A stretch of 64,000 bases of DNA from Phyto melanocephala. Taxonomy: Eukaryota > Arthropoda > Insecta > Diptera > Rhinophoridae. Of the stretch, positions 3,986-30,865 are shown piece by piece. Position 1 is the stretch's first letter. Each line of letters opens with the position of its first letter. The stretch spans positions 108,284,515 to 108,348,514 of the forward strand of contig OW799237.1 in NCBI GenBank assembly GCA_941918925.1, written 5' to 3'. The notes below the pieces were generated by a model, which saw only the letters and a program-made list of their open reading frames with translations, did no database searches and was not told the origin of the DNA. Made by a program: the position numbers and the translations under genes.

Positions 3986-4256
3986 TCATTTATAACCGGA
4001 AACTATTTGTAATAAATATCTAATAAAAAAACCCTTTTTTTTAAATTAAAATAATACCTCTAATTTGAACGCTTTTTGTTATAAATATTAAGAACTTATT
4101 AGGCAACTAAAAAGCAAATTTATAAAAAATTTTTTTTAATTAAATCATAAAGATTTTGATGGAGAAATTAATAGAGAACCTATCAATTGAAATTCCATCG
4201 TAATAACTAATATTTTAATTTTTAAAGCATCTATTCACATAAACAGATATTAAATA

Positions 4257-8007: not shown

Positions 8008-8677
8008 CAGTACCAGTTCACTTAACGCAACCGTCGATAAGCTCAACTCCTCGATTATTGCAACTCGTAAATTCTTTGCATTGTTGACTCAGTTAACGCA
8101 ACTTATAAAAAAAAAACCTCAGTTATCTCAACTTTTCTCCCAAAATGATCAATTGGTCATGTGCATTTACATATTTTTTATTTAGATTTACCAAGAATAC
8201 TGAAGCATGCGTGTTGCACTTGTTTTTTGTAGATATGTACTCAGTTGAAAGAATCTCTTTTCGTGATAGGTTGTTCAATTTACATTGAATAAAATGCCGG
8301 TGATTACAAAATTTTTAAAACTTTCAATTAAACAAAAAAGTGATATTTGTTGCAAGCTTGAAGAAAGAGTCATATCTGTAAAAGTGATTTGCGATGAATA
8401 TAAAGTGCACAAGTCAACAATATCCAGAATTAAAAAAACTGAAGCTGCAATAAAAAAAAACAAGTTGCAAATGCTGAATTAGACCAGGCAATCGTGTTAC
8501 AAGAAGAGCTTGTGAATATCCCAAAATGGAAAATTATTTGTACAAGTGTTTTATGAAGCCATATTAAACCATAAAATAGAATTTGCGCCCTAAAAAATTG
8601 AGACTCGGTCATCGCAACAACCTCAGTTTTCGCAACGGCCGAAATTTCTATTAGTTGCATTAAGCGAGGTTTCACTG
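8008..8677 (+). mobile_element. pogo/Tigger-like element with HTH fragment
   Basis: Terminal repeats are CAGTACCAGTTCACTTAACG on the left and CAGTGAAACCTCGCTTAATG as the reverse complement of the right, each flanked by TA. The internal frame 8285-8482 reads LSIKQKSDICCKLEERV and CDEYKVHKSTISRIKK, the CENP-B/pogo-type helix-turn-helix N-terminus. It then stops, so only a 670-base deletion derivative remains. It ends about 230 bases before the FAR start codon. Confidence 0.85.
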
Positions 8678-8913: not shown

Positions 8914-9692
8914 ATGCCGGAATTAACTCCCGTACAAGAATACTATAAAGGCAAAACGGTGTTTATTACCGGTGCCTCTGGTTTCATGGGTAAAGTGTTG
9001 TTGGAGAAACTGTTGTACTCGTGTCATGAGCTAAAGGAAATCATTATTATCTGTCGTCCCAAAAGAGGCAAGACTCCTGAATCACGTTTGGAAGACATGT
9101 TTAAACTGCCGGTATGTATAAAAAAAAAAACACACACACACACTACTTTTTAAATTTTAAATATGTACATTGTGGTGCGGCTTTTAGATTTTCCAACGTA
9201 TCAAAGAGGAAAGACCTCATGTTTTGAAAAAGGTAACCATTTACCAAGGTGACGTTACCTATGAAATGTTGGGCTTATCTGGCGATAATCTTAAGCATGT
9301 CAGCGACAACACTAACATTGTCTTTCATATGGCAGCCACTTTGAAATTGGAGGGCAATTTAAAAGACGCCATTGATATGAATTTAGCTGGCACGAGACGT
9401 GCTTTAGATGTGGCGAAACAAATGAAAAATTTGGAAGCTTTTGTTCATCTATCAACTGCTTTCTGTAATTGTGATCAGGAAGTGATGTACGAGAAGGTTT
9501 ACGATTTCCCTCACAAGCCTGAAGATCTAATGCGTTTGGCCGAATGGATAGATTTAAAAACATTGGAGAATATTACGCCGGATTTGTTGAAACCCCATCC
9601 CAACACTTATACGTATTCAAAACGTTTGGCTGAGTTATTCATACGTGATCATTATGATACCATGCCAGTGATTATTGCTAGACCAAGTATTG
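8914..9692 (+). CDS. FAR shared N-terminal half (exons 1-2): Rossmann fold and active site
   Basis: Exon 1 is 8914-9111 (66 codons, phase 0, donor GTATGT). Exon 2 is 9188-9692 (acceptor TTTTAG, donor GTAAGT, phase 1). The start is fixed by an in-frame TAA at 8908-8910, just upstream of the ATG. A splice-like TTTTAG ends at 8906, so a non-coding 5' exon lies further upstream; I could not place it. Visible motifs are the nucleotide-binding glycines TGASGFMG (G20, G23, G26), the NIVFHMAATLKLE strand, and the catalytic YxxxK in TYTYSK (Y207, K211). The piece ends at IIARPSI, inside the NAD_binding_4 domain and after all catalytic residues. It therefore cannot be a complete enzyme alone and needs one of the downstream modules. 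The reading frame is fully open and strongly FAR-like. Confidence 0.93.
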
Positions 9693-12600
9693 GTAAGTGG
9701 ACGACAGATGATTTTATTAAGTTTTTTAAGAAAATAAAAGCAAAAGCAAAAACAAAAAAAAAACTTGGGAGCTTTAGCATATGGAAATATAATTAATTTA
9801 ATAACAAATGCAAGAAATAAAACTGCTACATTTATGCTTGGCTTAAATTAAACAAAAAATAAAAAAAATTAATTTAAATTATTTTCTTTTTTTATGGCAT
9901 TTTTTCCGTAAATAAAGTTATGCTTGATAAACAGATTTTACACTGAGAAAAAAAAAACATAAAGCAAATGTATATTCATTTCTCGTTTCATTTGGCTAAA
10001 CATACTTTTACTTCTATTTTCATCAATATGACTTAACACAACTATTAGCGATATTTTACGACATGTAGATGAAGTAGGTAGAATTTATTATAAATAGTTA
10101 ATCACAAGGTTTCATTTTCATTTTCTTATGCATCTCTCACTAGATACGTTTTTACAAAAGCCTATTTTTCGTTTCTTGTTTAAATGTTTAAAAAATACTT
10201 ATACCATTTTATCAAATTTTTTACTTAGTGCTTACCTGGAGGTCAATTGTTGTTATACGTATAAATAACATTTATATCTATAGCTTAATAAAAACAAAGA
10301 GAGTATCTTTAAAGAAAAAAAAAACAAAATATTAAAAAGAAATGAGTTAAAAAATTGTTTGTGTGGCTTTAAATTCGTTATATTCATCTACAGCTCACAA
10401 AATTTTTGAATTTTTAAATTTTTATTGCATGTTAAAAACCAGAAAAATTTAAAAATGCGATTTCGTTAAAAACCGATATAAACTCTTTCTATATTAGCCA
10501 TCGATATATTAAAAACTAAAGTCCGTATTCATAAAAAATATTTTTTAAGTTTATTGATAGCTTATTTGACAAATTTCTCTAATTTATGAATACGGCCCTA
10601 ACATAACTAATTGACATTCATCATCGCACAATCCAAAATTCAAAAAGCTAGAGGCATGAAATTTTTCTCCTCTGACCTCTAGATTCACTAATAGGAAATT
10701 TTTTGGCGATTCTATTTTTAAAGGGGTAAAAACGGGTAAAATCGGTAACCTTATATCTACTTAATTAAAAATGATACAGATTAACTTGGAAAGCTATTGT
10801 AATAAACCTAAAAAATAAACTTGGTATCCGGCCTATTTTTGAATTTTTAACCACTAGAGGCGAAAATGGGTAAAAACTATGTTTTGGTACTTTTTTGGCA
10901 CCAATTTCCAAGCACATAAACGTAGAAAAAAATTTAACTGTAGAGGTCAAGTCTGATAAAACTTCTTCGCTTTGCGTGAAATTTATAACTTTGAAAAAAA
11001 AGCGTCGGGCAAAAGGTTAATGAGACATTAAAAAGTTGAGAACACTTAAACAGTGTTTATTTACCTATAAAAGCGGTTAGAAATTTTGACCAAAAAATAT
11101 TTGTTATTTTTATTTTAATTAAAATTTACTAAAAGTTTAATAAAATTGTATTATCACATACGAATTTAACACAAAACAAATTAAAATTACAACAACTGAT
11201 TGTCAAAGCGCGAAAAAAGATGAGAGTTGATTAACTTTTCGCTTCGTGCTGCGTTAAAAGTACTTTATGTAACATGTTTCGTAAAAGTATGTATATTTTA
11301 ACTTTGATTTTAAAGCGAATATATAATGCAACGCAAAAGTTTTATCTGACATGGCCTTATTAGTTACTAAGCAAAATATATTAATACGATTTTGGTATTT
11401 TTTAAAAATTCTGCTGTCTAAGGGGTAAAAATTTTCCCACTATTTGGTACTTTTAAAAAAATCTTATATTATATAAAAGCATATTAATTGACTATTATTA
11501 TTAATATGGACTATTATTTAGGTGAAATTTTTAGAAATTTCTAGGGGGACGAAAAAGGTACCTAAAAGGGGAAAATTCGGAAAAATATGTATAATTTCTA
11601 CTTACTAGGCCAATTCGGATAAAAATTTTATTATTTAAAGGTTTCACCTAACATACGAAATTATCTAATTTAGTTATATTTGAAACACATTCACAAACGG
11701 GTAGAAAGTGTAAAATTCCGGAAAACAGTTTGGTACTTCTTTTGAACGTAATTGTTTTAATGCAAAAAAGAGTAGATTTATTTACTTTTAATCATATTTT
11801 ATTGTTAAATATATATTTTTAAATTTGTACCTGGAATTTGTACATTAATATGGAAAACCTAAAATGGTACTTTTTGCCGTTTTTATGGTACTTTTCTGTC
11901 TTTTCTACGAATATGAATCTAGATTTTTTTTAATTATGGACTATTTCTTCAAGTTGAGATTGATAATATATTGGGTTACTCATAAGGTATTTTTTCGCAT
12001 TTCTATGTGGCTTTTTGTAATTTTTTTTTTGTTTGTTTATGAAGCTAGAATTCGAGGTGAGACTAAAATTGATATGGCCAGCCAAAATAGTACTTTTTTC
12101 ATTAAATGTTTTTTTTTTGTATTTTAAATATTTTTGAATGGGCATAGAATTCTTAAACTAGGTACTTTTAATTATTGTCAATTTGTTGATTTTGAAAGCT
12201 ATAGAGAAAAAAAAATTATTTATTTTATTTCTATATACATTGTTGCATTTTCTTAGTTTATGAATCTTAAATTTAAAAACTAAAAAACCTTGATTATAAA
12301 TTATTAAATAAATTAAAAAAAAAAAATGGAGGTAAATAATATTTTTAAAAGAAATAGATAGTTTCCCACTTTGTCCTCAAAGTACTTTCAATTTTTCTAA
12401 TTAATAATAACTAAAGAAAAAAGTTTTCATAAATTAATCGAAATAACATTTAATAATTTAGAAAGAACTGAAACATACAAATTGTTTTTCACTTTATCAT
12501 TTCATGTTCATCTTAGTACATACTTTTGATTCCCTTTGAGTGAAAGTTAAGGTCACCCTGCCCGCATTGCTGTACAATACAATAATAAAGGTTTACGTCT

Positions 12601-15600
12601 TTGTATTGCATTTTAAAAGGGAAAAACACACATGTCGCATATACATACGTAGACATTTTTCGATGTTTGTTTTTATTTAAACCATAAGTGAAGGTTGAGT
12701 GGTTCTCGAGGCATAGAACAATTTATTTCTATAAATATATGTAGATTAACTTAATTTACAACCTAAGTTGTAATGCACTATTGTTTCTACTTTTGTATGT
12801 GTTTATACTATTGTATGCAGGGTACACTTATACAAGGTGGTGGTGCCAGCCCAGCTGACTATTTTTTTGTGTTCTGGAGAATGTCAAACTACATATTAAA
12901 AAAAATTATTTCAACTTCGGAAATTGTCAAACTCCATACATAAAAAAAGAGAGACAAAAATTGCTCTCCTTTATGCTATCACCTTATGTAATTACACCAT
13001 GATTGTATGATTGTTGTTGGTAATTTCTATTAAAACAAATAGAGTTCGGTTTCATATGTTTTTGAAGTTTTGTATTGGATTCATACAGGGATGGTAAATG
13101 AAAATTGTCTGCAGGAACAAAAAAATTATTTTATAATATTTTTGGCTCCTAACATAAAAAATGTATTTTATTTTTTAACTTAAATGTTTATTTATTACCT
13201 CTGCTAAAAAAATTTACTAAAATTTGTATCAAAATACATTTCGCAACTCTGCAGAAGAAAGGTTTGATCAACTTTCCAATTAACATCCAACCTTTACAAT
13301 AGAAATTGCATTTACAAGTAAATAAACCAAACAGGATTTCAATAAATGAAACAAAATACATACATTGAGAGGATGTAAATTGAACAATTTTAAACAAAAT
13401 ACGTATATGTACGTGTAATAAATGTAAAGAAAAGCGTGAAAGTAAAAACTTTTGTTTCCAATTTTCATATTCCTTTATTTTGCATTACAGAACCTTCAAT
13501 ACCTTAGAGTTCCATTTAAATTTTGTTTAGCAAGTAAAACTCAATTAGAAAATATTATTTAGAAGATCCTAAGAGTAAGCCAATGTAAGTAACATTGATC
13601 AAGTAGAAATTTAATTTATTCATAACACAGACTTTTTGAGACGGAAAATTTAATATTATCTAGGACTGTTCATTTGACAGTTAAACGGTTAAACGTCGTA
13701 AAGTGTGAGTACAACAATCCTTTAGGAACATCTACAACAACAATAAAAATCGTAAAGCTTTCAATTTTTTTAAAAAAACTTTCGATAAATTATAAATAAA
13801 ATTTTTAATTTATTCTCTGTTTATAAAAAACGTGTTTCACACAATAAGAAAAGATTTATAAAAAATATTTCTTATATCGACCCCTGTGCGCAAAATTATC
13901 GTATGTTACATTTTTTTAGAAATCGACTTTTTTATGCAAATTGGTTCAATATCCATTTATTCATCTGCTGATGAAATATTATAGCGATAACTGTTTTAGT
14001 TATGGAGATAACACTGTGTACATTTTATAGTATGGAGCAGTGTTATTTACGTTTTTATTTATTTAAAAGTAATAAAAACGCAATCCTGTAAAATTTTGTT
14101 TTTGTAACATACGATAATTTCGCGCACAGGGGTCGATATAATCCTTATTGTGGAGAACTTGATTGGTTAGAAAATGAAAGTGTTAAAAGCTTATAGAAAC
14201 TAATAAGTTTAAGTGTAAATTTTCTTAGCCTAAACAAAACGAAATACTTTACTCTTTGAACAATGATAAGTTTTTTATATCGAGCCCTTACAGCGAAAGT
14301 AACGTAACTAACATATTTTTCCAAATTTACTTTTTTTGTTCTGCTGTCTCCAATACCTCGTCTATTAATTAATTTGAATCGAAAGTAATAATAGTTACAG
14401 AAATACAATCCATTCAATTTTAATGTAAACCACATCCAAATTTTTGTGTGACTGCAAAATAACGTAAGTGACGTTATAAGATACGACATAATTTACGAAA
14501 TAAATAATTTCATAAATTTTAAAGAGCAAACAAAAAATAACACATACGTAAAACTGTAATTTTTGATATAATTACGCTAAATTTTTGTGTCGAGGTGTAT
14601 TTGTGTGAAATGTTTTAAAATCACTGAAAAACGTAATTTCGTAAAAGGTATGAGTTATGGCCTTTCTACTTGTGACCATCGATATGTAACTGTTACTTGT
14701 TAGTTGTATTAATCTAAAGATGAAACCGTAAATAACTTTGTCATTCAACTTCTGATAAAAAGTATTAATAATACAAGCTCTTGTTTTTATATGAAGAATA
14801 ATTGTCAAACTATCTTTAAGATCATTTAAAGGCTGCATTTAAATTTTTAATAAAAAAGAGTTCTATACGAATTGGAACAAAGTCCTGTAAAATTTGGCTT
14901 TAGTGAGTTACGTTATTTTAGCGGTTAAGGGTCGACTTGTGCTTCTTTACCCTAAAAGCTATTAAAAGTTTACACTAAAAAAAATTTTAAAACCTAAGAT
15001 TTAATAAAACAAAAACTATATTTTTAAAGTCGGTATAAATTGATATATTTAATCCCACTAAGAAAATTCATTACCAAAAAGTTTCTCTTGAATCGCTTAC
15101 TTAGTGTTAAGCTGTTCCTAAGAGCCCTTCTAAAACATATGATTTTTAAAGCCATGTCCCATTTCGTCGTCGTCTTTTTGTTTTTTTTTTTTTTTGTTAT
15201 TACTAAGAGCTAATTTCATCCCTTTCAGGAGCAGCTTATTCATGACTTCGTCTAATGCACTGCTTAAAAAAAATAGCACCAAGTAAGAGAGATATAAAAA
15301 AATTCTATTGAAATAAATTTGTTTTATTTTTTCTGCTGTTGAATTAATAAGCAGTTGCACTTTTGTATACAAATAATTTTAGCATTTTCATGTATGCAAT
15401 ACAATATTTAAAAAAATTAAAAAATATTTTTTCGGTGGGATAATATTTTTAAAATTTTATACAAATTTTTTTAAAATTTTAATTTTTTTTAAATTATTAT
15501 ATGCTTACAGTTTTTATGAAAAATCTGTTTTATATAAATAAGTATGTAAAAATTTATTGTAAATATGGGGGGATAAACTTTGAAACTGTTACCACTTATT

Positions 15601-18600
15601 TCTATCTTGTAACTTGAGATCTTGAACAAACATGAAAAAAATTAAAAAATACGTTTAAAATGAGCTAAGGCTTTAAAGACTTATTAAAACTTGTTACACT
15701 AAAAAAGCTTTAACTAAGAATTGCTTACAAGAAATTGCTTTCAATATTGTGTGCGTGTAAAAAAACAAAAAAAAAATATTAAATAAAAATGCTTAAATAC
15801 TAGCGACAACGGAACTTTTGTAAATGCTTTAAAAATATGTGATGAATGTTAAGCACCTGCATATTTTCTTGGCTTTTTTAATTTAATATTATTATTTAAA
15901 AAGTGTTTGTTAAGTAAGAAAAAAAAACAATTAATCTATGTAAGTCTAAACAGAACTTTTGCTTAAATCTATGCTTAAAGAACAGCTTTGCAAATATGTT
16001 TGTGTAAACATAAATAAAACAAATCCTTAACTACAGAACCAGCAACAACAACAGCTTACTTTTTTATAAACACGTGTATATAATCTTAAATGCAAATAAT
16101 GATTTGTGTGTCTCTAAAAACTTAAAGTTGAAGAACTTTTCAATTACACTTGATTAACTGGCTTTACTTGGCATTCCTGCGGGTCATAAAGAAATGCACC
16201 GGCCTCTAAGTGCAGATATTGTTTTATACAATTTTCTTATTAAAATAAAACACTGGCAAAAACTTTTCGCCCGAAACACGCTTAATATGCTTAAAAGCTG
16301 TTACTATTTCTAAAAAAAAACTCTTTTAATAAACTTAGTATCACCATCGGCTTATGAGCCCGTACCCGGCTGGGTGGATAATCTCAATGGACCCACCGGT
16401 CTAATGGTGGGTGCTGGCAAAGGTGTTATACGCTCCATGTTAATCGATGCCTGTCACAAATCCGAGGTAATACCAGTGGATTATGCCATCAATGGCTTAG
16501 TCGTCATTCCCTATGAATTCTGCTCAAATCCACGGTAGTTTTTTTTTCATAATTTTCAACTGATTTCTTAGTACTTAAAACAAAATACACACACACACAA
16601 ACAAATACATAATTTAAACACAAATTTTACAGTCCCGAGGAGGTACCCGTTTACAATATCACTTGTGCTGAGAGACGTAAAGTACCGTGGGGCGAAGTCA
16701 TAGAGTTGAGCAAAAAAATTGGCTATCAATATCCCATGGAAACTGGTTTATGGTATCCAGACGGTTGCATAACCACAAATCGTTTACATCATCAAATTAA
16801 TGTTATTCTCTTTCACTGGTTACCGGCCTACTTTATTGATTTCATATTATTTTTAGTAGGTCAAAAGCGATTGTAAGTTGTTTATGACTTTTTTTTTGCA
16901 TTTTACTTAATTCTTTTATATTCTTTTCGAATTGATTGTTTTAAAACTCTTTTGTAAAAAGAACACTAACACCAAAACAACATGAAACCAAAACAAAAAT
17001 TGTTCGGAGATAATGGTTATTAAGTTTTATTAATTGTTTTAAGTACAAAATATTTAATTGCTGGCAAAGTAAAAAAATCTTAGTCCATTAGGTGTGTTTA
17101 AAAGTTTTTGTTTAAGGTACTGTGTGACCTTTTAAAATCGTGGCTATCTTTTTCCTTTAATACGAAATTTTATTAACTTGAACTGAAAACTACTATCATT
17201 ATTATTGCAGCAGTTTACTTACAAATAAATGCACAGCATGTTAAACCTATTTTTACAATTGTTCAATTCACAACCCCCCATAGTTTTTTTTAAAATGCAT
17301 GCCCTATTCAAAGCGACTGCATATCAGTGCGATTAATATTATTTCATATTATTTTATGCTTTCTTAAAATTTTTGTTGGTAATTTTCATACGAAATAAGA
17401 AATATGACCAAAAGCACGTATTGAATATGTCTTAGACAATTTTAATTTAAATTTCTCAACCATTCACTCTCTTAAAAAGAAACTCAACGGTTTTCTTTTT
17501 TATTGTATAAAACAGTGTTTCCACAACGAAAAACAATTGTGACCAAAATTATTAGATCAAATTTCCAAATAAAAAAAAAAAAAAAAACCCAATCTTCATC
17601 ATCTTATCAAATGTATTTTTTGAAACAAAAGGCGTATCATATTTTGTAATATGAAATATACCACATAGTAAACTCGATATAAGAATATATATACCCTTCA
17701 CACAAAAGTGAAAAAGGGTATATATAGGTTTTTCATTCCGTGTTTTCTACAATTTTCATTTCCGACCCCACAAAGTATATATTTTCTGAAAGCTTATGAA
17801 TAGGGGAGTCGATTAAGCATTGTCAGTCTTTCTGTCTGTCGGTGTGTGTGTATGTTGAAATCAACTTTTAAAGGCCCCCCAACATCTCCTGGACCCGTGT
17901 GAGGTATTAAAATATCAGAAATATTTGGGAGCAGATTGGTTTTGAAAATCAAAAAAATCGCTACATAAACAAGCGAGATATAAGGAAAAATCCACGACCA
18001 CCTCTTTTTTTCACAACAACAATATACAATACATACATACAAGCGAGGTATACTGGTCAGAGTGAACGTGGCATCGAATTATTATTTTTATTATTTTTTT
18101 TAACATACATACAAAAACTCAATTTATAATTTTACAATGGGATGTTTTTATATACATACTAGAAAAGCCCGGCGCGCGTTGCTACGCCCCTTAATGAATG
18201 AAAATGCATTCTGAATTTAAATTAAATATCAAGTGTAAAAAGTTAAAATTATTACCTTTTTTAATGGGCGTGGCACTGCCCACTTTTCTAATCACGAAAC
18301 TGTATAGTCATGACAGCTCAATATGTGTGCAAGGTTTCAGAAAAATCGGTCCAGTGCAAGTACCTAAAAATTATAATTTTTTTATGGGCGTGTCCCCGCC
18401 CACTTTTCTAATAACGAAATTATATAGACATGACAGCTCAATATGTGTGCAAAGTTTAAGAAAAATTGGTCCAGTGCAAGAACCTCAAAAATATAACTTT
18501 TTTTTGTGGGCATGGCCCTGCCCACTTTTTCAATCACGAAATTATAAAGTCATGACAGCTCAATATGTGTGCAAAGTTTCAGAAAAATTGGTCCAGTGCA

Positions 18601-21600
18601 AGTACCTCAAAATTAAAACTTTTTTAGGGGCGTGGCACCGACCACTTTTCTTATCACGAAATTATTTAGTCATGACAGCTCGATATGTGTGCAAAGTTTC
18701 AGAAAAATCGGTCAAGTGCAAGTAGCTAAAACTGATAACTAATTTTTTATGGGCGTGGCCCCGCTCACTTTTTTCCACCCATAAACACTCCCTGGAATAT
18801 GTACAATAACTTGCCAAAGTTTGAGTCCGAACGGTTTTACAGTTTCGGAGTCTATAGCTAACACACACACAAAAACAGAGTTTCACTTTTATATATATAG
18901 ATGTATGTATGTACGTATTTCATATTAATGAGATGAATGGTGATACAAACAATTATTATTGCATAACTACATGTTGTGAAGGGTATATAAAATTCGGTAC
19001 GGCCGACTATAGCACTCTTACTTGTTTTTATTTCTGCTTTTTGTTTTGGAGCGACAAAATATAGCAAATAATTATTTTTTGATTTATTTAATTTCCCATG
19101 TCTGAATAAATCCAATCCAACATTTTATAAACATATGAAATTTTATTGTTTTATAAAATGTTTAACAAAAAAAATATAACCAACAACAAGCATAAAATGC
19201 CGTAAACTAATACAAAAGTAGTACCAAAAGAAGATTTTAAGAGGGTTGTCAACTGTCGAAATACCAATCAATCTTGTGGAAATGCAAAAAAGTAGAGTAT
19301 ATTTTTACACTAACAAATTATAAACAAGTAGAACACTTTTACAACTATGCAAATTTGCAATGACAAAAACACAAGATTGTGAAATGGGCTATTTTTTGTT
19401 TTTTCTTTGCCATAGTGAATATTTTTCTATTGTTTTAAACACTCACATAATCCAGCAACAATTAATGAAAATACAACTCTGAAACAGTTGCTATGTGGTT
19501 TACACAATGCAAGCAAACTTTTTGTTTTGATGCTCTCGTTTGTATTCTGTAATATTCATTTGTTGTTTTGGTGGAAAAAGGCCTTTTAAGCAAAGAGTAA
19601 TTTAATTTTCAAACTCTCCCTAGTATGATTCGCGTACAAAATCGTGTACAAATCGGTTTAAATGTCTTACAATTCTTCACCATGCGTGCCTGGTGTTTTA
19701 AGTCGTATGCCTACGAATCGTTATGGAAAAAATTAAATGACGAGGATAAGAAACTGTAAGGATTTACTTACTACTGCTTGATATTTATTACAAATATGTT
19801 ATTTATTCCAACTAAAATCTGTTTCAACCAAAAAGTTTCAACATGAATATGGACACCGAAGAAGATTTAGAAGAATATATGATATCTTGCATACAAGGTG
19901 GTCGTCAATATCTAATGAAAGAATCTCCCGATACGCTTCCCAAAGCGAGACGCCAATTGAAATTGTAAGAATTCCGTGTTAACTTGAAATTTTGCAATTG
20001 AAATACATTTGAGTTCTAAATTATTTTTATTTCTAAAATTATAGCATGTATTTTCTTGATCGTACTTGCAAAACAGTTTTTGTGGGTCTTATCTGTTATT
20101 GGACTTATAATTTTTTTACACCCATTATGATTGCCTAATATGGATTTCTTTTAAAGTTTAGAAATTAATTTTCTAAATGTTATACATTTTGTTAATTTTA
20201 GTATAATTAAGGCTTAATTCTGCAAGTGGGTTGCTAGTTTTTTAAGAAAAATAATAAAAGAAATATGTATAAATAAATACTAAAGTTTTAATAAAAATGG
20301 TGTCAAAATTAAGTGCGAAAACAAAAATATATGTGTCTAAATTTAAAGTTTGAGAGATATGAGAGGCATGACGCAGATTAAGCGAATCCCTAATATCAAC
20401 TTAAAAAACTTACAGCAAAATTTAAATACAATAATTTTATAATTTATTACATGAATAAAGGCTAAATTAAAAATATGTTTTAATAACTATAAATACAACT
20501 CTTTTCTTAATATCAGAGTAGTTACTAAAATAGCATAAAAATAGTCACAACGTGATTTTCGAATTGAAAGAGTAGACGCAGTAAGGTGACATTTTTACAG
20601 TGAATAGAAAAGTATTAAATTAAAGTTAAAATCCATCAATGCTTTCTAGATAAACACAAATTTAAAGAAAGCACGCAACTTAGTAATGCACAGTGGTTTC
20701 TTGAGAGGAAAATTAAAAAAATAAATATGTAACTTATTATCCGAATTTATCCGAATTCCATGAACAGTACCAAATCGTCTCAACCGTTGCACTATGTGAT
20801 ACCCTGTGTCAAACTTTTGTTGAAATACGTAAAAGAAACTATGAGTTAAAACCTAAAAAAGAAAAAGGAACAAAGTCATAAAAAATTTATATTCATTTGA
20901 GTTAAAAACTATTAGCTATACCCTACCACTGTAAGAGTTTTGTTTTGTTTCTTTTTTGTCTTTAAACACAAATTACCACAAGTAAAAAATCATTTAAATC
21001 GACTTACATGTAAAAAAAAATACAAGCCTCAAAAAAGTTGTTTAAGCCCGTGGTTGAAAATATTTGATCCTCTGCTGTGATCCCCAGCTTTTTTCAGGCA
21101 ATTCGAAATAGTAGTTTAGAAGTTACATTTTTATAACCATTTTTCTTTTCAAAATAAACCACTGTGTAACGGTAATATTAAAACGTTTTTTTTAGTGTAC
21201 ATTTTCCACAAAATTACACACACATACATACATATATGCAAACATACATAATTACTTACACACTTTAAAACAATTTTACTTATTCGCATATACATATGTA
21301 TACATACACCCATACAGTAATTAATACAAACAAACATTTTAACAAAACAAGCTAAAAATCAATTGAAATCAAATTTGACAAAACAAATTAATGTAATATT
21401 AAACATTAAACACACAAGCTTTTTATATCATACTTTAGTTTTAACTATAGTTAATAAAAGTCACAAAAAATCAACACTTTAAATTAAAGTATGAAAAAGA
21501 GCTTTTACACAACTATACATACACACATACATGCATACACATACATAAATAAATACACACATACATGCATACACACGTACATAAATGCACACTTACATAA

Positions 21601-24600
21601 ATATACACACATACATAAAATACACACATGCATATATACATGTAAATACATTAGTGTTGAGAAAAAATCATGGAATTGGAAAAAAAAAGTGTCATCTCCT
21701 TCATTTTTGCAACATGTAAGTGGTTCATAGAGTTTCGTCTTTAAATCTAACGATTTATTTTTTTCAAATAAATTCATTTTGAGTTTGATATTTTGTCTCA
21801 CCCACCAACGACAACACTTCCAAAACCACCAGTATCACCGGCAGCATTTGAGCCCCTACCCGGTTGGGTTGATAATCTAAATGGTCCAACTGGTCTTATG
21901 ATCGGCTGTGGCAAAGGTGTAATACGTTCCGTGTTGGTAGATGCTAAAAATAAAATTGAAGTCATACCGGTTGATTATGCCATAAATGGTTTGATTGTTA
22001 TACCCTATGAGTTTACCAGAACCAAAAAGTAAGCTTTCTTTTAGTGTTTAATACAAATTGAAGTTTTGTTTAAAAATAATTTAAATTTTTATTTTAAATT
22101 AGACCTGCTGAAATACCAGTTTATAATATAACCAATGCTGAACATCGCAAAATGTTGGGCGGCACTGTCATCGAAATTAGTAAACGTCTTAGTAAGGATT
22201 ATCCATTTAATGCTGGTCTTTGGTATCCTGATCCTACCATTACAACGAATAAATATTATCATCAGTTTAATGTCATCATGTTTCATTGGTTACCGGCCTA
22301 CTTATTAGATTTTCTTATGTTGATTCTGGGACAAAAAAGATTGTAAGTATGAAAGTTTTTAATTTTCTTCAAAAAAACTAGTCAAAAAGGTTAATTTGTG
22401 ATTGAAAAAAAGATTTCATGCATCCTGTTAGGTAATCTGTTACTTTGGAACTTTTTTCCTACAATAAGTCCTAAATTATTTAAAGCAGTTAATAGGGAGC
22501 ATATTTTTTACAACTGACTTGTCCAATTTGTAACTTTTACTAAAACAATTGAATTGTTTTAGTAAAAGTAATGTTTTGTTTGTTTTGTTATACCCTTCAC
22601 ACAGTGAAAAAGGGTATATATAGGTTTGTCATTCCGTGTGAAATTTCTACAATTTTCATTTCCGACCCCATAAAGTATATATTTTCTGAAAGCTCATGAA
22701 TAGGGGAGTCGATTAAGCCCTGTCAGTCTGTCCGTCTGACCGTCTGTCCGTGTGTATGTCGAAATCAACTTTTTGAAGCCCCCCAAAATCGCTTGGACCC
22801 GGGTGAGGTATTAAAATATTAGAAATATTCGGGAGTAGATCGGTATTGAAAATCAGAAACATCGGTTCATAAGCAACTGAGATATGAGCAAAAATCCACG
22901 ACCACCTCGATTTTTTTTTCATAAAAACAACATTACAAAAACAACATACATACATACAAACTTGTATATTGGTTAAAGTAAACGTGGGATCGAATCCCAG
23001 CTGAGCCAAAAAAAATTTTTTTTATTTTTTTATATTTTTTTTTAAATTTTTTTTTTAATACTTTTTTTTTTTTGATTTAATATATTATTTATATTTTTTT
23101 TTATTTTTTTTTAATATTTTTTTTTTAATTTTTTTTTAACTTTTTTTTCAAATTTTTTTTAATTTTTTTTATATATTTTTATTTTTTTTAACATACATAC
23201 GTTAATTTTTAATTTTACAATGGGATGTTTTTATATATGTATGTTTTTTATATATGTATGAAGGTTTTTAATATGAGATGAATGGTGATACAAACTGCTG
23301 TTATTGCATGACTACACGTTGTGAAGGGTATATAAGATTCGGCATGGCCGAATATAGCACTCTTACTTGTTTTTTATATACTAACACTAAAATATAGTGA
23401 TTGAAAGTAGAATGAAATAGAATACATAACATTTAGAACATTTTGCGCAGCTCTTTAGTATGCATGCAATAATGAAAATACTATTCAAAGTGTACTGAAA
23501 ATATTATAGAAACAAATGAGACAAGAACCCAGACAAGAAATTTTAACTATGCGTTTTGTTTCATCACAAAAAACAGCAACAGCGATCTGCTTGTTTTAAG
23601 GCAAACATACAACTGAAATTATAGTTTAACACTACTATTTGTACCTAGTGTGTTTTGTTAAAAGTCGTATTGTGTATGTTAAAATCACGAAAAGTGCTCA
23701 GCCTACGACGGCATAGCATAATGAAGGCTGTTTTAAAGCCTGTTTAACCTCAAATTTCTCTTCATCTGACAACTATTTATATTATAAAATGAATACCTTC
23801 AGAATTTTTATTTCAATAACAGTGGTTTAATTACAAAAAACATTGAGTTGCATTTTTTTCTTGGCAAATTTATTCACTTTTTTGAATAAATATAAAAAAA
23901 AATATAAGTTTGCAGAAAAACATAATGATGCTACTAATTACATTTAATATTTAAAAATAAAAAGAGAAGAGTGGAATTAATATCGTCATTACTTATACCA
24001 TAGTTTCTAGTCTCGATCATTTTTATTTGATGATAGTTGTAATATAGCATAAAGATGCATCTCGCTACTGTACCTTAGACTTTACTATCCCCAGAGAAAA
24101 CATTCGAATGTTGTTAAATAACATGAACGAGATGGCTTGTCAAATTTTTATATCAATTAATTTATAGTATCGCTTGCACACCACATGTCTGCAATACTAA
24201 TATCTCTCATAATCTCATAATTAAATACAAAAGGATCCTTTTCGAAATGTAATCACCTTCTGTTGTTAGCCCATGAACAGTATTTTAAATATTGCATATA
24301 AAATCGAAAATGCAAAAATTATATTTTAAAGTAATAACGACTGAAAAAAAAATAAATCTTAAAAATTTGTTTTGACGGGTAACTCCTTTTTATACTCGCC
24401 ACCAAAAAAATGGTGGGGGTATATTCATTTTGTCATTCCGTTTGTTACACATCGAGATATCCATTTTAGACCCCATAAAATATATATATTCTGAATCGGG
24501 GTTTGATTTAATAGCGATCTAGCTATGTCCGTCCATCTGTCCGTCTGTTGAAAGCACGATAGAGGTCGCACCGAAAAAGCTAGAGGGCTCTAATTTTGCC

Positions 24601-27600
24601 AGAATCTTTCTTATAGACAAGGTTTGTAAGGTATTGAAAATGGGCTAAATCGGAATATTTAGAAGAGAGTTATAGCGCGTAATGCAAGAGTAGGTCGAAA
24701 AAAACGTGTCCTTCGAACATCGAATAAAATACAATTGTGTCCAAACGCATTAACGTACAGTCATGAAGCTTCGAATATATATTTCTCGGGTCAAGACAAT
24801 ATTTCTTCCTAAAAATTTTATGTACGATTTTGATATTTTGCACACTTTGCTTTTTAGTGAGAGGCTTTGTTGTAACGGAAAATCAATGTGACACGCCCAC
24901 TTTTACGCCCACCTCCCATATAATGCTTTATCTCAAATTCAAATAATTTCTCAATGAATAAAGATTTTGTAATAATAAAGGACTATATTGAAACATTTAA
25001 GTTGTATTCATTAGCAAAAATAACTTTGACACGCCTACTATAACGCCCACTTTTCACGAAATTTAAAAGTTCATAAAACCGATAATATTAGAGGTATGAT
25101 GATGAAATTTGCTACATATAAACTTCTAATCAATGTAATTGTTATGCCAAACAATTTAGGTGACACGCCTACTTTAACGCCTACCTCCCATATAACGGTT
25201 TATCTTAAATTCATGTAATTTCTCTATTGACAAAGTTTTTGGAAAAATAAAGGACTATATTGAAATATCTAAGTTGTATTTATTAGCAGAAACTTTCTTG
25301 ACATGCCTACTTTAACGCCCACTTTCATTGAAAGACTACACTTACAAAAGCATTTTAGTAGCATATCGAAGTTATAAAGGGTGCTTTAATTTTAAGGGCC
25401 GATGTTGATTTTGAATAAAACACAAATTATTTAGGAAATTATTATCATTTTTTCTTATTACGATAATATTTGTATGGTTCAATTATGTAAGGAACAAAAT
25501 ATCGGCCAAATGGCACAGCCAAATATAGTGCTCTTACTTGTTTATTTATTAATATGTACAATTTAATATTGTATTTAAACTTAACCACCTTAATGCATAA
25601 TCGTCTCTTAATCTCCTTATTTATTTTAAATATTAATAACCATAAAAATATTTTTTGCAGCATGATTAAAATACAGAAAAAAATTGCTACTGGTCTAGAG
25701 GTTTTACAATTTTTTACTTTGCATGCCTGGTATTTTAAATCAGATAATTATGGTAGCCTCTGGGAAAACTTAACACCAAAAGATAAGAAAATGTAAGTCT
25801 GTTTAAAAGCAGTTTTTTATTTAAATAATTAATTGAGGAACTGGTAAATTAATTTTTATGTTTATTTTTAAGATTTAACATGGATATGGATATCAATGTA
25901 ACTGAAGAGGAATATTTAATAATTTGTTCGAAAGGAGCTCGTCTCTATATATTGAAAGAGAAACTGGAAGATTTACCAAAAGCTAGGCTTCATTTCAAAA
26001 TGTAAGTAAATGCAACAAATACAACAATGAAAACAAACTTTTTTTTATCTATTTTTACCCAAGGTAGATTAATAATAAGGTACTCGTATCCAAGTTGTAG
26101 ATAAATTTGTCTTTTTGACGCAATTTCTTCAATGAATTCTCCTTTTATTAGAAAACAATGAAATTCATTTTATTTCGATACATTTTTTTCATAAAAAAAA
26201 AATATAAAAAAGATTTGGGAACCCAATACAAATTGCAGACAATTATTTATAGGTTCAAAAGAAAATAAAATAAGTAGACTCGCGGTAACAAAAACACTGC
26301 CTTACGTGCGCACCGGATAAGATGAACATAACTTTTTTACACTGACGTAAATACAGTGAGAAAGCCTTATAACGTGAACAAATTTGTCGGTTATCCAAAT
26401 CGTTTTCATAAAAAGGGGTATCCCCGTAAATGATTTCATAGGTTTAGTTTAGTGCGCGCTGCTGATTTATATTGATCTAATCTAAAGTTTTTCGTGAAAA
26501 ATGTCACAAAAACTACCGAAATTCTAAAGTTGAACTTCCTGTGATTGGAAAGGTAAAAAATCCTCGTTCTTTTAGAAATTTTGAATCTCATGTCGCCTAC
26601 AATAGCTCCAAATCGTAATGGATGACAGCTGTCACTTTTGAAAATTGGTATAACTATTAATGGACGCTATTGGCTATTGAAATTCAACTTGGCAACGTCT
26701 TGAAAAGAAAATAATAGCAAAATGCTGGCTGAACATTTTTAGCTCTTTAGGAGATGAAGAAGACTGTGAAGAGGATATCCCGTTAGCTTTTTTAGAGAAA
26801 GAATTTGTTCAGCAATTAAAATTTTAAAATTTTAAAGATAATCCAAAAAAAGGTAACAAATTTTTTTCATTTTGTCTTAACGTACTTTTTTTTTATTAAC
26901 ATATGAATTTGAGTTAAATCACATGTCTAATTTATTTGGAAATTATAAAGAGTTACACCTTCGTCAACATGAACAACTTCGCAAACTTGAACAGGCTCGG
27001 TTTTTAATAGTTCACGTTACCGCAAGTCTACTGTAATTTAATAAATTTGAATTTGTTTAATTTAAACAATTTTTATTTTACGTGAAAGTTGTTGAAATCC
27101 TTTAATAAACTCTTATTTTTTTTTAATTTCAACACCCTTTTAATTATAAATATACAAGTAATATTATAAAAATGTTCTTTTTGTTTTTCAGTCAATACGT
27201 GGTGGATAGAGTGTGCAAAACTTTAATTGTTGGCTGTTTCCTTTACTATCTTTCCAAGTGGACAGGCATTTTATCCATGTTTTAAATAACTAAGAAAAAT
27301 ATTATTAAGTATTATTTTATTTGGCTAGATTGTTTACATTGAGCAAGTTTTCTACGTTTATTGGCAGAGAGAGAGAGAGATAGAGAGAGAGAAAGATTAA
27401 GAAAGAGTTTGGAAAAGAGTAAAAAACTGTGTACAAACTAGCGTGTATTCAAAACATTTATACAATTTACAAATATGACAATCAAACCAACATAAATCAA
27501 ACTGATAAAACTTGAATTTTCCGAGTTTACGTAAAAAATAGAATTTTGCTCAATGTAAACTGATAACTTTAGATTATTTTTTATATGTTAACATGAACTT

Positions 27601-30600
27601 TTAAATTTTTGTGCAGGGTCAATGTAATAAATGGTTTTATTTTCAATGTCAATGTCTAAGTGTTTTGATTTTATATTATTCAATTTGGAATTATGAACAT
27701 ATAATTAAAATATTCATAACTTCTAACATCTAGTGACTCCAGCTTATCAAGAACCTTTACCAGGTTGGGTGGATAATTTAAATGGCCCCACCGGAGTTAT
27801 GATAGGAGCTGGCAAAGGCGTTATTCGTTCAATGTTATGCAATGGAGAATTAAAATCCGAAGTCATACCTGTAGATATTGCTATAAATGGTTTAATAGTA
27901 ATTCCATACTATGTTGCGCAATTCAAAGAGAGGTAAGTTTATGTTTGAAATAATTATTTGTATCTGGTAGCATGTAGTTATGCATTGCCTTTAACTGTTT
28001 GTTCAATTCAATTCAAGACCCGCACATTTGCCGGTTTTTAATTTGACTGTGCACGAATCTCAGAAACAAAGCTGGAAATGGATTATGGACAAGGGACGAG
28101 AATATGCTGAGAAATATCCCTTCGAAGTGGGCTTATGGCATCCGGATGGTAATATGACAAGTAATAAATACTATCACTGGCTATGTGTGGTTCTGTTTAT
28201 GTGGCTGCCCGCTCTTTTGGTGGATATTTTATTAACCATATTCCGCCAAAAAAGATTGTAAGTTTAAATGTTTAAACTTATATTCCCAAAATGAAATAAA
28301 AATGTTCTGTTAAATATCTTTCTTAGCATGATACGAGTACAAAAACGCATTGCAATTGGTTTGGAAGTCTTGCAATTTTTCACTACAAGAGCTTGGGATT
28401 TCAAATCGAATAATTTTCGGGAACTCTACAAGTTATTAACGGCTGAAGATAAGAAAATGTAAGAACATGTACATGGTAACAATCGGTATTATTGCAGTAT
28501 TATTGTAGTTAAAGGAAGTTAACAATATAAACACTATTCTAATATTTATTTTATTTGTACAAGTCAAACAATAAAATTAACTAATTTAACATCATAAAAA
28601 CTACTATGAAGTAAGTGAAAAACAAGCAAACAAAAATTTAAAACATTTTTGCAATTTAGTTTTTATTAGGGTAACCTTTGTTTTCTTATGCTTCCTAAAG
28701 TCGTAATTACATCGAATCAACCAAACGTTTTGTCATAGAGCCTTAATGTTGATTTAAAAAGAAGGGCTCTAAAAGCTCAATGGCAGATATACACGTTTGC
28801 CCAATTAGCTTGTTGTGCGCTAAGTTAAAAAAATTTATAATGCCTTCGATTTCATAGGATTTGGGTCAACCCATATTATGTTCGTCACCTTGCCAACACC
28901 AGTAATTAAAATTTTTTTGACGTATTCCTTCATTTCTCAAACTTAAAGTTAATTTTCTAACCTCTGAAATGGTTTACCATTCTCTAAACTGATGGTCTTC
29001 AAAAATTTGTCGGCTTCATCGTAACCGGCCAGGTCCTAAATCTTGGGTTTGAAACCAACTAAAATAATGTAATATATCGTGAGGTTTGATTTAAAATGTA
29101 AAATAAAACACATAAATTTAAAAGTAAACTTTAACTTTTTATTATCCGTTATAAGAACAATTTATGGCATTTACTTTTTGAAAATAAAATTATGTGAATG
29201 TTGGGCACGACTACATCTAAAGCAGTCAATTTAAAAGGTCCAATTTTGAGTGACTCGTTCGAACATAGCGACTGGTATCTTAACGAGTATTGTTGACTTC
29301 CAAAGTGTCAATCGTAGCTGGGTTATACCTGAAGACCTAAGAAAAGAAAATAGTTCAAAGGTGTTATATCGCACAGTCTATGTGGCCAATTTTCCGTAGG
29401 AAAACGTGGATTAAAGTCCTCGCCACAATGATATCTCAACAAGTCCATTGTTTCACATTTTATATGGCTTGAAGAACCGTCTTGTTGAAACCAGAACTCA
29501 CCGAGATAATGCTATTGAATTTCAAGAAGCACAAAGACCGTTAAGATGGTGCGATAATGATAACCATTGACAGTAACACTTTGATTCGGCTCATTATTAA
29601 AAAAAATAGGAGCCAGTGATAAAACCAGCCCGTGGTATTTTTCGACTTGCTCATCAGCCCATATACGGAAATTTTATTTATTTATTAACGTATTCATTGG
29701 AAATATAAGCATCAGTAGGTTGATTATGCGCACCGTAAGTTCCTCAAATCGCACGAAAAACACTTCTCACAGAACGCTAAACAGAACCGCATGAGTAATT
29801 TGAAGACGCTGGTATGGTGTGGGTCTTTCATGATGACATGCCAAACGATGCTGAACAAATATGATAAAGCATTTTAATATGAGCCAAAAAGATCCTTTGA
29901 AAATTCAAACCTCATGTCGAATCACCCGATATAATCACCAAAATAAAATTGTTTTGTTGTTTTTCCTTAAATCTACCGAAAATTAATTTTTTCCGCTTCA
30001 AGACAACTGACGTATTTAACTTTTGTATCAATATAAGTTGTCAAAGATTTTTACGTAAACAATTCTAAATCCAAAAAGGTATATTAAGCAAAATGGCGGA
30101 TTACATATTATTTTTAAGTCCACGATGGCGCCTGAAAAAAATTCAAATTAAGCTTTTTCTTCCAATCCAAGATGTCCAACACAACAGAATTTCAAGTTTT
30201 ATCGATCCCCCAAAATATAGGTATTAAATTGAAGAATACTTAAATAAAAAAACTCTAAATTCAAGATGGCATATGAAACAAAGTGACTTTAGTCTGATCA
30301 ACGCCGTATAGTAAAATTAAAAATACCAACATATTGTGTAAAGGCTATACAAAATTGGGTAAGGGCGTATATAGTACTTTTTCTTCTTGAAATACCATTT
30401 TTCTCCTGCAACTTGCGACCTAAGAACACACTTTATGAGTTGCTCAAAATAATTGCAAAATTTTTTGTTATTTTTTATTTTAATTCTTTTTTTTTCTAAA
30501 ACTTTTTTATCCACATACTTTTTCTAGATTTAAAATAAACACTGAAGATATTGATGAATCAGAATATTTAAAGTTTTGTATTTTGGGTGGGCGACAATAT

Positions 30601-30865
30601 GTTGTTAAGGAACCATTATCCACTTTGCCCAAGGCACGTGTACAACACAAATGGTAAGACTATAAAAAAATTAAATGTTTCCTGAATTTTTTAAAATTTA
30701 ATTAACAACTCAAACCCTATTTATTATCGAAATATCTTCTCTTTACATTGCAGTATGTTCGTCTTGGATCGTGTTTGTAAAACTATAATCTGTTTTAGTT
30801 TTCTCTATTGGCTGATCTCAAAACTTGGAGTTGTAGGCTTTATTAAAGACATAATGGCTGATTAA
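8914..30865 (+). CDS. Fatty acyl-CoA reductase locus: one shared 5' half, three alternative 3' modules
   Basis: This is the whole-locus view. Fatty acyl-CoA reductases convert fatty acyl-CoA to fatty alcohol with NADPH, usually at the ER or peroxisome membrane, for waxes, cuticular lipids, tracheal waterproofing or pheromones. Exons 1-2 (8914-9692) are present once. Three tandem five-exon blocks (A 16339-20138, B 21833-27285, C 27734-30865) each encode the remaining C-terminal half with its own stop. Exon 2 ends in phase 1 (ATT G|) and every block opens with the two bases needed to complete a Val codon, so each can be joined directly to exon 2. Predicted products are 497 aa (A), 497 aa (B) and, if its frameshift were absent, 503 aa (C), matching the usual insect FAR length of about 500 aa. 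From memory and unverified, Drosophila CG30427 is the closest relative I can think of and may have a similar arrangement. The join of exon 2 to B or C is inferred; no transcript was seen. Confidence 0.8.
10517..10602. mobile_element. Small palindromic MITE (GGCCGTATTCATAAAAAATA family)
   Basis: The ends GTCCGTATTCATAAAAAATA and TTATGAATACGGCCCTAA are inverted. A longer copy of the same family lies at 52274-52396. Confidence 0.6.
10944..11357. mobile_element. Putative inverted-repeat element in FAR intron 2
   Basis: The left end GGTCAAGTCTGATAAAACTT and the reverse-complemented right end GGCCATGTCAGATAAAACTT are similar over about 30 bases. The interior is non-coding. Confidence 0.5.
13872..14141. 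mobile_element. 270-bp MITE with near-perfect 39-bp terminal inverted repeats
   Basis: It starts TTATATCGACCCCTGTGCGC and the reverse complement of its right end starts identically; the arms differ at one base in about 39. The high arm identity suggests a recent insertion or a maintained hairpin. Confidence 0.75.
14277..14938. mobile_element. Larger relative of the preceding MITE, dispersed family
   Basis: The left end TATCGAGCCCTTACAGCG and the reverse-complemented right end GTCGACCCTTAACCGCTA pair with an internal AACGTAACT. An internal block, reverse-complemented, containing AGTAGAAAGGCCATAACTC recurs at 50955-51010 and 56852-56910, so this is a dispersed family with at least three copies in the window. 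Confidence 0.55.
15000..16330. other. AT-rich intronic sequence, nothing recognised
   Basis: Last part of FAR intron 2 before module A. There are no open frames of coding character, no inverted repeats seen and no match to the repeat families elsewhere in the window. Confidence 0.5.
16339..20138 (+). CDS. FAR 3' module A (five exons, intact)
   Basis: Exons are 16339-16534, 16633-16872, 19624-19755, 19836-19964 and 20045-20138, all with GT-AG borders, read codon by codon with no internal stop. The first exon completes the Rossmann half (VSPSAYEPVPGWVDNLNGPT, then GKGVIRSM and EVIPVDYAINGL). Exon 2 carries ETGLWYPDG and the hydrophobic start of the FAR_C domain (HQINVILFHWLPAYFIDF, about residues 352-369). 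Exons 3 and 4 continue FAR_C (IGLNVLQFFTMRAW; CIQGGRQYLMKE; LPKARRQ). Exon 5 is a short hydrophobic tail ending in a TAA stop. Joined to exons 1-2 it gives 497 aa. Intron 2 of the block (16873-19623) has been enlarged by a DINE-1-like repeat that itself holds another repeat. A poly(A) signal follows at 20253. Confidence 0.9.
17690..19027 (+). mobile_element. DINE-1/Helentron-like repeat, interrupted by another repeat
   Basis: It starts TATACCCTTCACAC, carries CCGACCCCACAAAGTATATA and a GTCT/GTCC-rich run (TCTTTCTGTCTGTCGG), and ends GAAGGGTATATAAAATTCGG, then CTCTTACTTGTTT. A GTCY-type microsatellite, subterminal inverted TATACCC/GGGTATA and a 3' hairpin are features I associate with DINE-1/Helentron non-autonomous elements. 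A foreign repeat (18158-18902) splits it. Confidence 0.7.
18158..18902. repeat. Nested repeat with five ~120-bp tandem modules
   Basis: It begins at GAAAAGCCCGGCGCGCG and ends TTTTATATATATAGAT. Inside, units starting GGGCGTGG (or GGGCATGG) lie at 18266, 18386, 18508, 18628 and 18751, each with CCCACTTTT, CATGACAGCTC, TATGTGTGCAA and AAATCGGTCCAGTGCAAG. Because the period is close to a multiple of three, a 175-aa open frame with a repeating 40-residue pattern appears at 18198-18725; I regard it as non-coding. Confidence 0.75.
20253..20258 (+). terminator. Candidate poly(A) signal for module A
   Basis: AATAAA 115 bases after the module A stop codon, with a second at 20272-20277. Its presence before module B suggests that isoform A ends here, which would couple 3' end choice to splicing. 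The assignment rests on position and hexamer only. Confidence 0.5.
21185..21650. repeat. ACAT-type microsatellite tracts between FAR modules A and B
   Basis: Two stretches (about 21215-21330 and 21520-21645) rich in ACATAC, ACACAT and GCATAC repeats. Open frames through them are composition artefacts. Confidence 0.8.
21833..27285 (+). CDS. FAR 3' module B (five exons, intact)
   Basis: Exons are 21833-22028, 22103-22342, 25661-25792, 25873-26001 and 27192-27285. Sizes and phases match module A exactly, and no stop interrupts the frame. Key segments are VSPAAFEPLPGWVDNLNGPT, GCGKGVIRSVLVD, FNAGLWYPDP, FNVIMFHWLPAYLLDFL, IATGLEVLQFFTLHAWYF, LPKARLHFK and a C-terminal hydrophobic stretch ending ILSMF. 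The first exon is about three-quarters identical to module A by eye. The acceptor (CCACCAG, 21832) is preceded by A/C-rich rather than pyrimidine-rich sequence, so it looks weak and may be regulated; the open frame continues upstream to 21793. No Rossmann half lies in the 1.7 kb after module A. Introns carry a DINE-1-like copy (22589-23372), a second larger type (24391-25543) and a pogo-like element (26271-27033). Confidence 0.88.
22589..23372 (+). mobile_element. DINE-1/Helentron-like repeat (full length)
   Basis: This is the cleanest full copy: TATACCCTTCACACAGTG at the start, CCGACCCCATAAAGTATATA, a GTCTGTCCGTCTGACCGTCT run, a T-rich middle (22999-23210), and an end with GATTCGGCATGGCCGAATAT and CTTACTTGTTT. 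It sits inside the second intron of FAR module B. Confidence 0.75.
24391..25543 (+). mobile_element. Second, larger DINE-1-like type with internal duplication
   Basis: It starts TATACTCGCCACC, has TAGACCCCATAAAATATATA and GTCCGTCCATCTGTCCGTCT, and ends TATAGTGCTCTTACTTGTTT. An internal segment starting GACACGCC is repeated after about 272 bases (24890 and 25162). It differs from the other family by sequence but has the same layout. Confidence 0.65.
26271..27033 (+). mobile_element. Decayed pogo/Tigger-like element
   Basis: The left AGTAGACTCGCGGTAAC pairs with the reverse complement of the right end, CAGTAGACTTGCGGTAAC, and TA follows the right end. A short frame near 26755-26825 reads DEEDCEEDIPLAFLEKEF, like the acidic C-terminus of this transposase class. 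It lies in the last intron of FAR module B. Confidence 0.65.
27366..27393. repeat. (GA)n microsatellite in the 3' UTR of FAR module B
   Basis: GAGAGAGA run with one TA interruption, about 80 bases after the module B stop codon. Confidence 0.8.
27626..27631 (+). terminator. Candidate poly(A) signal for module B
   Basis: AATAAA in the only 448-base gap between the module B stop (27285) and module C (27734). It is followed by T/G-rich sequence. It would allow isoform B to end before module C. Confidence 0.55.
27734..30865 (+). CDS. FAR 3' module C (five exons, frameshift in exon 4)
   Basis: Exons are 27734-27932, 28018-28257, 28327-28458, 30528-30654 and 30754-30865. The first three are open and typical: EPLPGWVDNLNGPTGVMIGA, VIPVDIAINGLIVIPY, FEVGLWHPDG, LCVVLFMWLPALLVDILL, IAIGLEVLQFFTTRAWDF. 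Exon 4 starts in the expected frame (YLKFCILGGRQY) but has one extra base at about 30598-30601, so the conserved continuation (VVKEP, then TLPKAR) lies one base out of frame. As written, translation stops at TAA 30607-30609, giving about 451 aa instead of 503 and losing the last 50 or so residues. Exon 5 is open in the pre-shift frame and ends DIMAD. All splice sites are intact, so this is either a young disabling mutation, an allele, or a sequence error. Module C is the most diverged of the three. Confidence 0.82.
28700..29045 (-). pseudogene. Unidentified decayed coding-like segment
   Basis: The reverse strand reads DLAGYDEADKFLKTISLENG in one frame and EGIINFFNLAHNKLIGQTCI in another, with stops and frameshifts between. 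The residue pattern looks like once-coding protein rather than noise, but I do not recognise the family. It lies in intron 3 of FAR module C, next to a mariner-like remnant, and may belong to a transposon or an inserted foreign sequence. Confidence 0.4.
29240..29900 (-). mobile_element. Mariner-like transposase remnant
   Basis: The reverse strand gives GEFWFQQDGSSSHIKCETMD and then FPTENWPHRLCDITPL, which correspond to the WFQQDGAT...RSCDLTPLDYFLW part of mariner-like transposases. Frames are broken. It is in intron 3 of FAR module C. Confidence 0.65.

Follow-up and report, generated by a model that had tools for sequence, protein, structure and literature searches.

The 64,000-nucleotide stretch of the Phyto melanocephala genome analysed here (contig OW799237.1, positions 108,284,515 to 108,348,514; the window) contains a gene for a fatty acyl-CoA reductase (FAR) in which one front half precedes three complete back halves, blocks A, B and C, arranged in tandem. 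The gene is very probably the orthologue of Drosophila melanogaster CG30427, with its splice donor at 9692 being joined to block A, B or C and each choice giving a full reductase. The layout is already known from D. melanogaster, and the window gene is a further instance of it. What the sequence comparisons below appear to add is the identity of front halves in many species, the orthology and age of the blocks, the fixation of a Met/Val difference, hybrid gene models and an offshoot in muscid flies.

Architecture of the gene

All exons lie on the forward strand. The front half contains both the GxxGxxG and the YxxxK signatures: shared coding exon 1 (8914-9111) carries the start codon and the former, an NADP motif, and shared coding exon 2 (9188-9692) carries the remaining Rossmann core and the active site YTYSK, ending in phase 1 at the residues ARPSI. 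Block A is composed of exons at 16339-16534, 16633-16872, 19624-19755, 19836-19964 and 20045-20138; block B of exons at 21833-22028 (with a very T-poor acceptor tract and a GT donor at its 3' border), 22103-22342, 25661-25792, 25873-26001 and 27192-27285; and block C of exons at 27734-27932, 28018-28257, 28327-28458, 30528-30653 and 30754-30865. In each block exon 3 encodes FAR_C and exon 5 contains the stop codon.

The exon lengths of A and B are the same (196, 240, 132, 129 and 95 nucleotides, the last figure including one base past the stop), and those of C are close to them (199, 240, 132, 126 and 112). Each block is entered in phase 1, and all inner junctions are in phase 2. The coordinates and one-plus-three layout proposed in the first-pass annotation, and the conserved phase 1 entry and exon sizes that it described, held up when the exons were assembled from their splice sites and lengths and phases were computed: the front half spliced to A, B or C gives an open frame of 497, 497 or 503 amino acids, respectively, and the NAD_binding_4 and Sterile/FAR_C domains score above cut-off in all three products. 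Between pairs of blocks, codon positions 1, 2 and 3 differ at rates of 0.34-0.40, 0.21-0.26 and 0.57-0.60, the pattern of constrained coding sequence. In the like length and phase of their neighbouring homologous exons the blocks resemble a mutually exclusive exon cluster; unlike the internal exons of such a cluster, they form the ends of the gene, with a stop codon in every block, and are not flanked by shared exons on both sides.

A single front half in the genome

The gaps between blocks measure 1,694 bp (A-B) and 448 bp (B-C). That they hold no N-terminal exons, as had been claimed, was confirmed: searching the window with tblastn, using the whole front half and each of its exons, revealed no second front half at E < 0.2. 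Against the whole genome (a 740-Mb assembly of nine contigs), the front half recovered its two exons at 99% and 93%, with no other match exceeding 55% identity. The possibility that B and C have hidden front halves of their own, in the window or elsewhere in the genome, was accordingly rejected.

Extra blocks were sought genome-wide by domain profile, in six-frame searches without splicing, so that the counts are lower bounds. The FAR_C profile gave at least 16 matches, three of them in the window, and NAD_binding_4 at least 50. Shared exon 2 ends at position 206 of the NAD_binding_4 profile. At least 11 pieces end at this position, ten of them outside the window, and at least 11 start at positions 206-209: three in the window, where they share one front half, and eight elsewhere, each on its own. 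Since pieces end and start here at many other loci, it is probable that an ancient FAR-family intron marks the boundary and was exploited by block duplication. The intron is not universal: three loci (C5:76.1 Mb, C1:43.6 Mb and C1:119.7 Mb) have pieces that cross the position, and a fourth, C2:134.8 Mb, has a frame that appears open across it. Three FAR_C matches at C2 126.58-126.61 Mb each have a front half of their own; this is a duplication of whole genes, in contrast to the blocks of the window. Within the genome, one front half before three back halves is found only at the window locus.

Shared front halves in other flies

Three protein searches gave 1,709, 228 and 442 matches at the chosen cut-offs, and the best 120 of each were merged into 183 distinct proteins. 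A first tree was built from 68 of these (75 rows); two rows from Hermetia, which had failed the automatic split into halves, were joined later. Compared with the front halves of Lucilia cuprina and Calliphora vicina, that of the window gene shows 97-98% identity. In 14 of the 15 same-species pairs of the first tree the front halves are identical to the letter and the back halves different, and the Hermetia pair brings this to 15 of 16 (15 fly species). The exception, Haematobia P0025/P0066, has front halves alike at 163 of 234 positions and involves a separate gene. These identical fronts, together with the transcript classes published for D. melanogaster (see below), bear out the proposal that one front half serves three ends.

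In Calliphora vicina, isoform X1 corresponds to the front half plus B and X2 to the front half plus C. Such records argue against the notion of B and C as independent genes that are truncated at the N-terminus and have promoters of their own, or as decaying copies, for which the existence of gaps between the blocks might speak, as might two models (P0121 of Drosophila arizonae and P0123 of D. gunungcola) that begin near a block and lack the core. The additional N-terminal letters of P0121 appear by eye to be of low complexity, however, and a product lacking the front half would have no NADP motif and no catalytic Tyr or Lys. As every block is also intact and constrained, with orthologues kept across the higher flies, we consider this notion very improbable.

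Four database models of 754-801 amino acids (P0001-P0004) contain two consecutive blocks each: front half, A and B in D. tropicalis and D. miranda, front half, A and C in Glossina, and front half, B and C in Lucilia. They are most likely prediction errors rather than real two-block proteins. Exon 5 of the window's block A has, by eye, no GT donor at the point where the fused D. miranda model exits. The cluster of that model comprises 14 sequences.

The ratio of back-half to front-half distance is 2.38 for C (78 pairs), 1.82 for B (66) and 1.49 for A (28); among comparison rows it is 0.94 for mosquitoes and Corethrella (15 pairs), 1.40 for sandflies and Culicoides (6) and 1.55 for the muscid single gene described below (3). 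The idea that the front half is constrained by being shared was not retained, the ratios, from non-independent pairs, being suggestive for B and C and not for A.

Age of the blocks

The tree was cleaned to 58 rows by dropping 19 of the 75 (long branches, hybrids, near-copies and outgroups) and adding the two of Hermetia. For each block a single branch separates its rows (9 for A, 19 for B, 19 for C) from the remainder of the tree, with support values of 90/97, 100/98 and 100/98, and each clade contains Drosophilidae, Tephritidae and calyptrates. Groupings were further assessed with the approximately unbiased (AU) test, the groups being named after the tree had been viewed. Forcing the window's own A, B and C together is rejected (p = 3e-44), as is forcing together the B and C proteins that are both present in the hoverfly Episyrphus (p = 2e-35). 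By these sequence comparisons each of the three blocks is an orthologous lineage of its own, and they are not the result of a recent triplication. Because the Episyrphus pair is not monophyletic, the split of C from A and B would predate the hoverfly line; the same tree places the split of B from A before that line too, on weaker grounds. No hoverfly A is among the matches listed.

The tests leave next to no room for a recent triplication, or for gene conversion within each lineage, either of which would have made the blocks near-redundant. The almost equal exon lengths of the blocks would be in keeping with such a history, and so would a tree of exons 1-2 alone, in which the A rows do not form a clade and B is nested among them; but the block proteins are 54-58% identical in pairs, and for whole blocks the window trio and the hoverfly pair refute it. 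The three-block design appears to be older than the divergence of hoverflies from fruit flies and to have been retained in related flies ever since; the hoverfly line branched off in the Cretaceous or earlier. The module tree that the first-pass annotation had called for agrees in this respect with the old and maintained design that it had suggested, A, B and C appearing to have split before the hoverfly line.

The rows from mosquitoes and sandflies, a single one for each species, group together outside A, B and C; three carry isoform numbers (X2, X7 and X2). Hermetia illucens has two proteins with back halves 64% identical. They were rejected as proof of a triplication before the Hermetia line, a clade of its own pair giving p = 0.105 and one of A, B and C without Hermetia p = 0.055; in the same context, grouping C with P0032 gave p = 0.026. 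Episyrphus P0016 was considered as an A/B hybrid and not retained as one: its exons 1-2 lean slightly to A (81/79 and 69/65), but both part trees place it in B. The window's B row (WIN_B) has an end branch of 0.22, against 0.009 for Calliphora B and 0.04 for Lucilia B, whereas the front halves differ by only 2-3%, which points to quicker evolution of B in Phyto melanocephala.

Relation to CG30427 and other known systems

CG30427 of D. melanogaster is described in Finet et al. 2019 (PMC6546124) as having single exons 1-2, three cassettes and three main transcript classes, and its layout is termed there a unique case. At a predicted substrate site its isoforms A and C have Met and isoform B has Val. 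The window gene likewise has single front exons, three tandem cassettes, three predicted isoform classes and a site with Met in two blocks and Val in the third, and each of its blocks clusters with a Drosophila counterpart; the isoform letters of that paper need not equal ours. On the basis of the layout the gene is most likely the CG30427 orthologue, which makes likely a link that the first-pass annotation had suggested. The table entry for CG30427 in the same source reads phylogenetically stable. Hybrids, a block phylogeny outside Drosophila and the muscid offshoot were not found in the open-licence literature, where no search was aimed at hybrids or the offshoot by name.

In Drosophila Gr39a, four large alternative exons are spliced onto three small conserved exons, and exon divergence takes the place of gene duplication (PMC2204066); each alternative there is one large exon, whereas here it is a block of five. 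Dscam of Chelicerata shares the tandem cassettes and differs in that they are 5' and the product is a cell-adhesion protein. The alternative part of Gr39a, too, is 5'. Drosophila lola and mod(mdg4) have common 5' exons and alternative 3' ends; unlike the window gene they encode transcription factors, and none of their ends amounts to an entire catalytic lobe.

The exchanged half of the enzyme

Across 40 aligned FARs, G20, G23, G26, Y207 and K211 are invariant, and all five lie in the front half. In a predicted model of the C. vicina C isoform (predicted local distance difference test score, pLDDT, 90.7), whose best PDB match is rice DPW with NADP (7eoz; template modelling (TM) score 0.74-0.75 by query length), the block boundary (residue 234/235) falls just past the strand at 227-232, behind the Tyr207/Lys211 helix. 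We take it as the point where the chain exits the nucleotide-binding core. From the invariant residues and the position of the boundary in this model, the cofactor-binding and catalytic residues would be the same in every product, and the swapped part would comprise the acyl-facing lobe, FAR_C and a tail that is hydrophobic by eye.

At residue 268 all 9 A rows and all 19 C rows carry Met; of the 19 B rows, 18 carry Val and one Ile. From this pattern we infer that it is the substrate site predicted by Finet et al. Rows left out of the tree have Val in two B, Met in one A and two C, and Ser in the C of Musca autumnalis; the three muscid single genes, also left out, have Leu. Met is found outside A, B and C as well, in nine rows from mosquitoes and sandflies and in the two from Hermetia (three called by pattern, eight by eye), so that Val268 of B looks derived. 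Eight further positions are block-fixed at the 90% level in tree rows. The blocks may differ in the acyl substrate they accept or the membrane site they occupy; the pointers to such a change of specificity or location are the Met/Val exchange and these eight other block-specific residues.

The gene offers a natural trio of enzymes with an identical cofactor and catalytic half and a difference confined to the substrate half; the role of the back half (chain length, membrane site) could thus be studied in them free of the confounding effect of a changed core. Its three ends have long been retained on one front rather than separating into genes.

Proposed splice choice

We propose that one primary transcript starts upstream of 8914 and that its donor at 9692 is joined to exon 1 of A, B or C, the remaining exons of the chosen block following and the transcript ending after that block's stop. 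If B or C is chosen, the earlier blocks would be removed as intron; if A is chosen, the message would end early. Each product would be a full reductase, the shared half supplying the NADP fold and the catalytic Tyr and Lys, and the block supplying the substrate lobe, FAR_C and the hydrophobic tail. All three products are presumably made in Phyto melanocephala, and the choice is probably made at the entry acceptors. The three entry acceptors have poorer tracts than the twelve inner ones (pyrimidines, p = 0.039; T, p = 0.024), that of A exon 1 having the fewest pyrimidines and that of B exon 1 the least T, which fits a regulated choice.

Several points weigh against orthology with CG30427 combined with such a choice. 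The acceptor comparison is small and post hoc, and the reading for Phyto melanocephala comes from genomic sequence. The first-pass annotation had given each module its own stop and poly(A) signal; the stops stand, but the signals do not, since AATAAA, although present after each stop, has a window-wide density of 3.4 per kb and is too frequent to prove transcript ends. The proteins of other flies are mostly automatic gene models, and no blow fly A isoform is among the matches listed, the nearest A rows there being those of Glossina and Musca autumnalis. Names in the databases mostly refer to CG5065, which is another FAR of Drosophila, and the D. melanogaster protein P0040 (Q8MMC6_DROME), which falls in clade C, is a row without a gene name; it is the layout that provides the CG30427 link. 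In PMC6546124, a different specificity of the isoforms is proposed with the statement that direct biochemical evidence is lacking, and knock-down of CG30427 is viable with no adult oenocyte signal, giving no phenotype that would indicate a need for the gene. Finally, each CG30427 cassette has four exons in that source, against five per block in the window gene, and the two flies belong to different families; the exon count is a difference of introns and is not decisive for orthology.

Cross-block hybrids and a muscid offshoot

Splicing an inner donor of one block to exon 1 of the next is out of frame (phase 2 into phase 1), whereas splicing it to the inner exons of the next block is in frame. 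Counting gives 21 forward in-frame paths through the five exon slots, three of them pure. Three database models follow mixed paths: D. pseudoobscura X4 (P0013) joins A exons 1-2 to B exons 3-5, the latter identical to those of D. miranda B; D. novamexicana X5 (P0011) joins A exons 1-3 to C exons 4-5; and D. arizonae P0121 joins B exons 1-2 to C exons 3-5, without a front half. P0011 and P0013 have normal FAR domain scores. C rows with an exon 5 scoring nearest to A were excluded from the count on account of low identities.

All three hybrids switch at shared phase-2 junctions and run forward, as would be expected from splicing along one transcript. They raise the possibility that the blocks are not sealed, early exons of one block being also spliced to later exons downstream to give combinatorial tails, which the phase 2 of all inner junctions would permit in frame. 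They amount, however, to just 3 of the 52 brachyceran rows compared, automatic gene prediction can yield such mixes, and Finet et al. name three main classes only; we regard unsealed blocks as unlikely, though not far-fetched. A little more doubtful still is a broader form of the idea, that the gene is a small combinatorial system in which some hybrids are used and combinations that work can split off as genes of their own.

The muscid front-plus-C gene is a candidate for such a departure. The back halves of P0064, P0066 and P0067 (Musca vetustissima, Haematobia and Stomoxys) group with the M. autumnalis C isoform (100/99), a join between long branches that needs care, and the front half of this fast-evolving single gene groups with the muscid main gene (98/97). 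From these two placements, a unit of front half and block C seems to have given rise to a gene of its own within or near Muscidae. Muscids would then be a case of one end apparently split off, and the offshoot lends indirect support to front half plus C as a working unit. The front-half search gave no sign of a separate gene of this type in the Phyto melanocephala genome.

Surroundings of the gene

Introns 2 of A and B are 83% similar over 411 bp. The similarity was considered as a trace of block duplication and ruled out: it is due to a mobile element, with copies at 17690-18079 and 22589-22995 and further pieces in the window at about 31.9, 32.7, 33.6, 36.6, 37.2, 45.9, 52.8, 53.4 and 57.7 kb. 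The copy in block A contains a tandem repeat of about 122 bp (18245-18772). Upstream, a short forward frame at 8270-8482, about 430 bp before the start codon, matches the CENP-B N-terminal domain (E = 5e-5) and is probably the remnant of a pogo/Tigger-like element; a 118-amino-acid frame on the reverse strand at 4231-4587, with no Pfam match, reads to us like a mariner-type transposase fragment. Downstream on the forward strand are cytochrome P450 exons at 50157-50666 and 54401-55339 (PF00067, E = 5e-13 and 4e-74), followed by long open frames at 58696-59577 and 59689-60090 that are Ser/Thr-rich by eye, have no Pfam match and perhaps form one gene. After these lies a frame at 61727-62071 with a match, under cut-off, resembling leucine-rich repeats.

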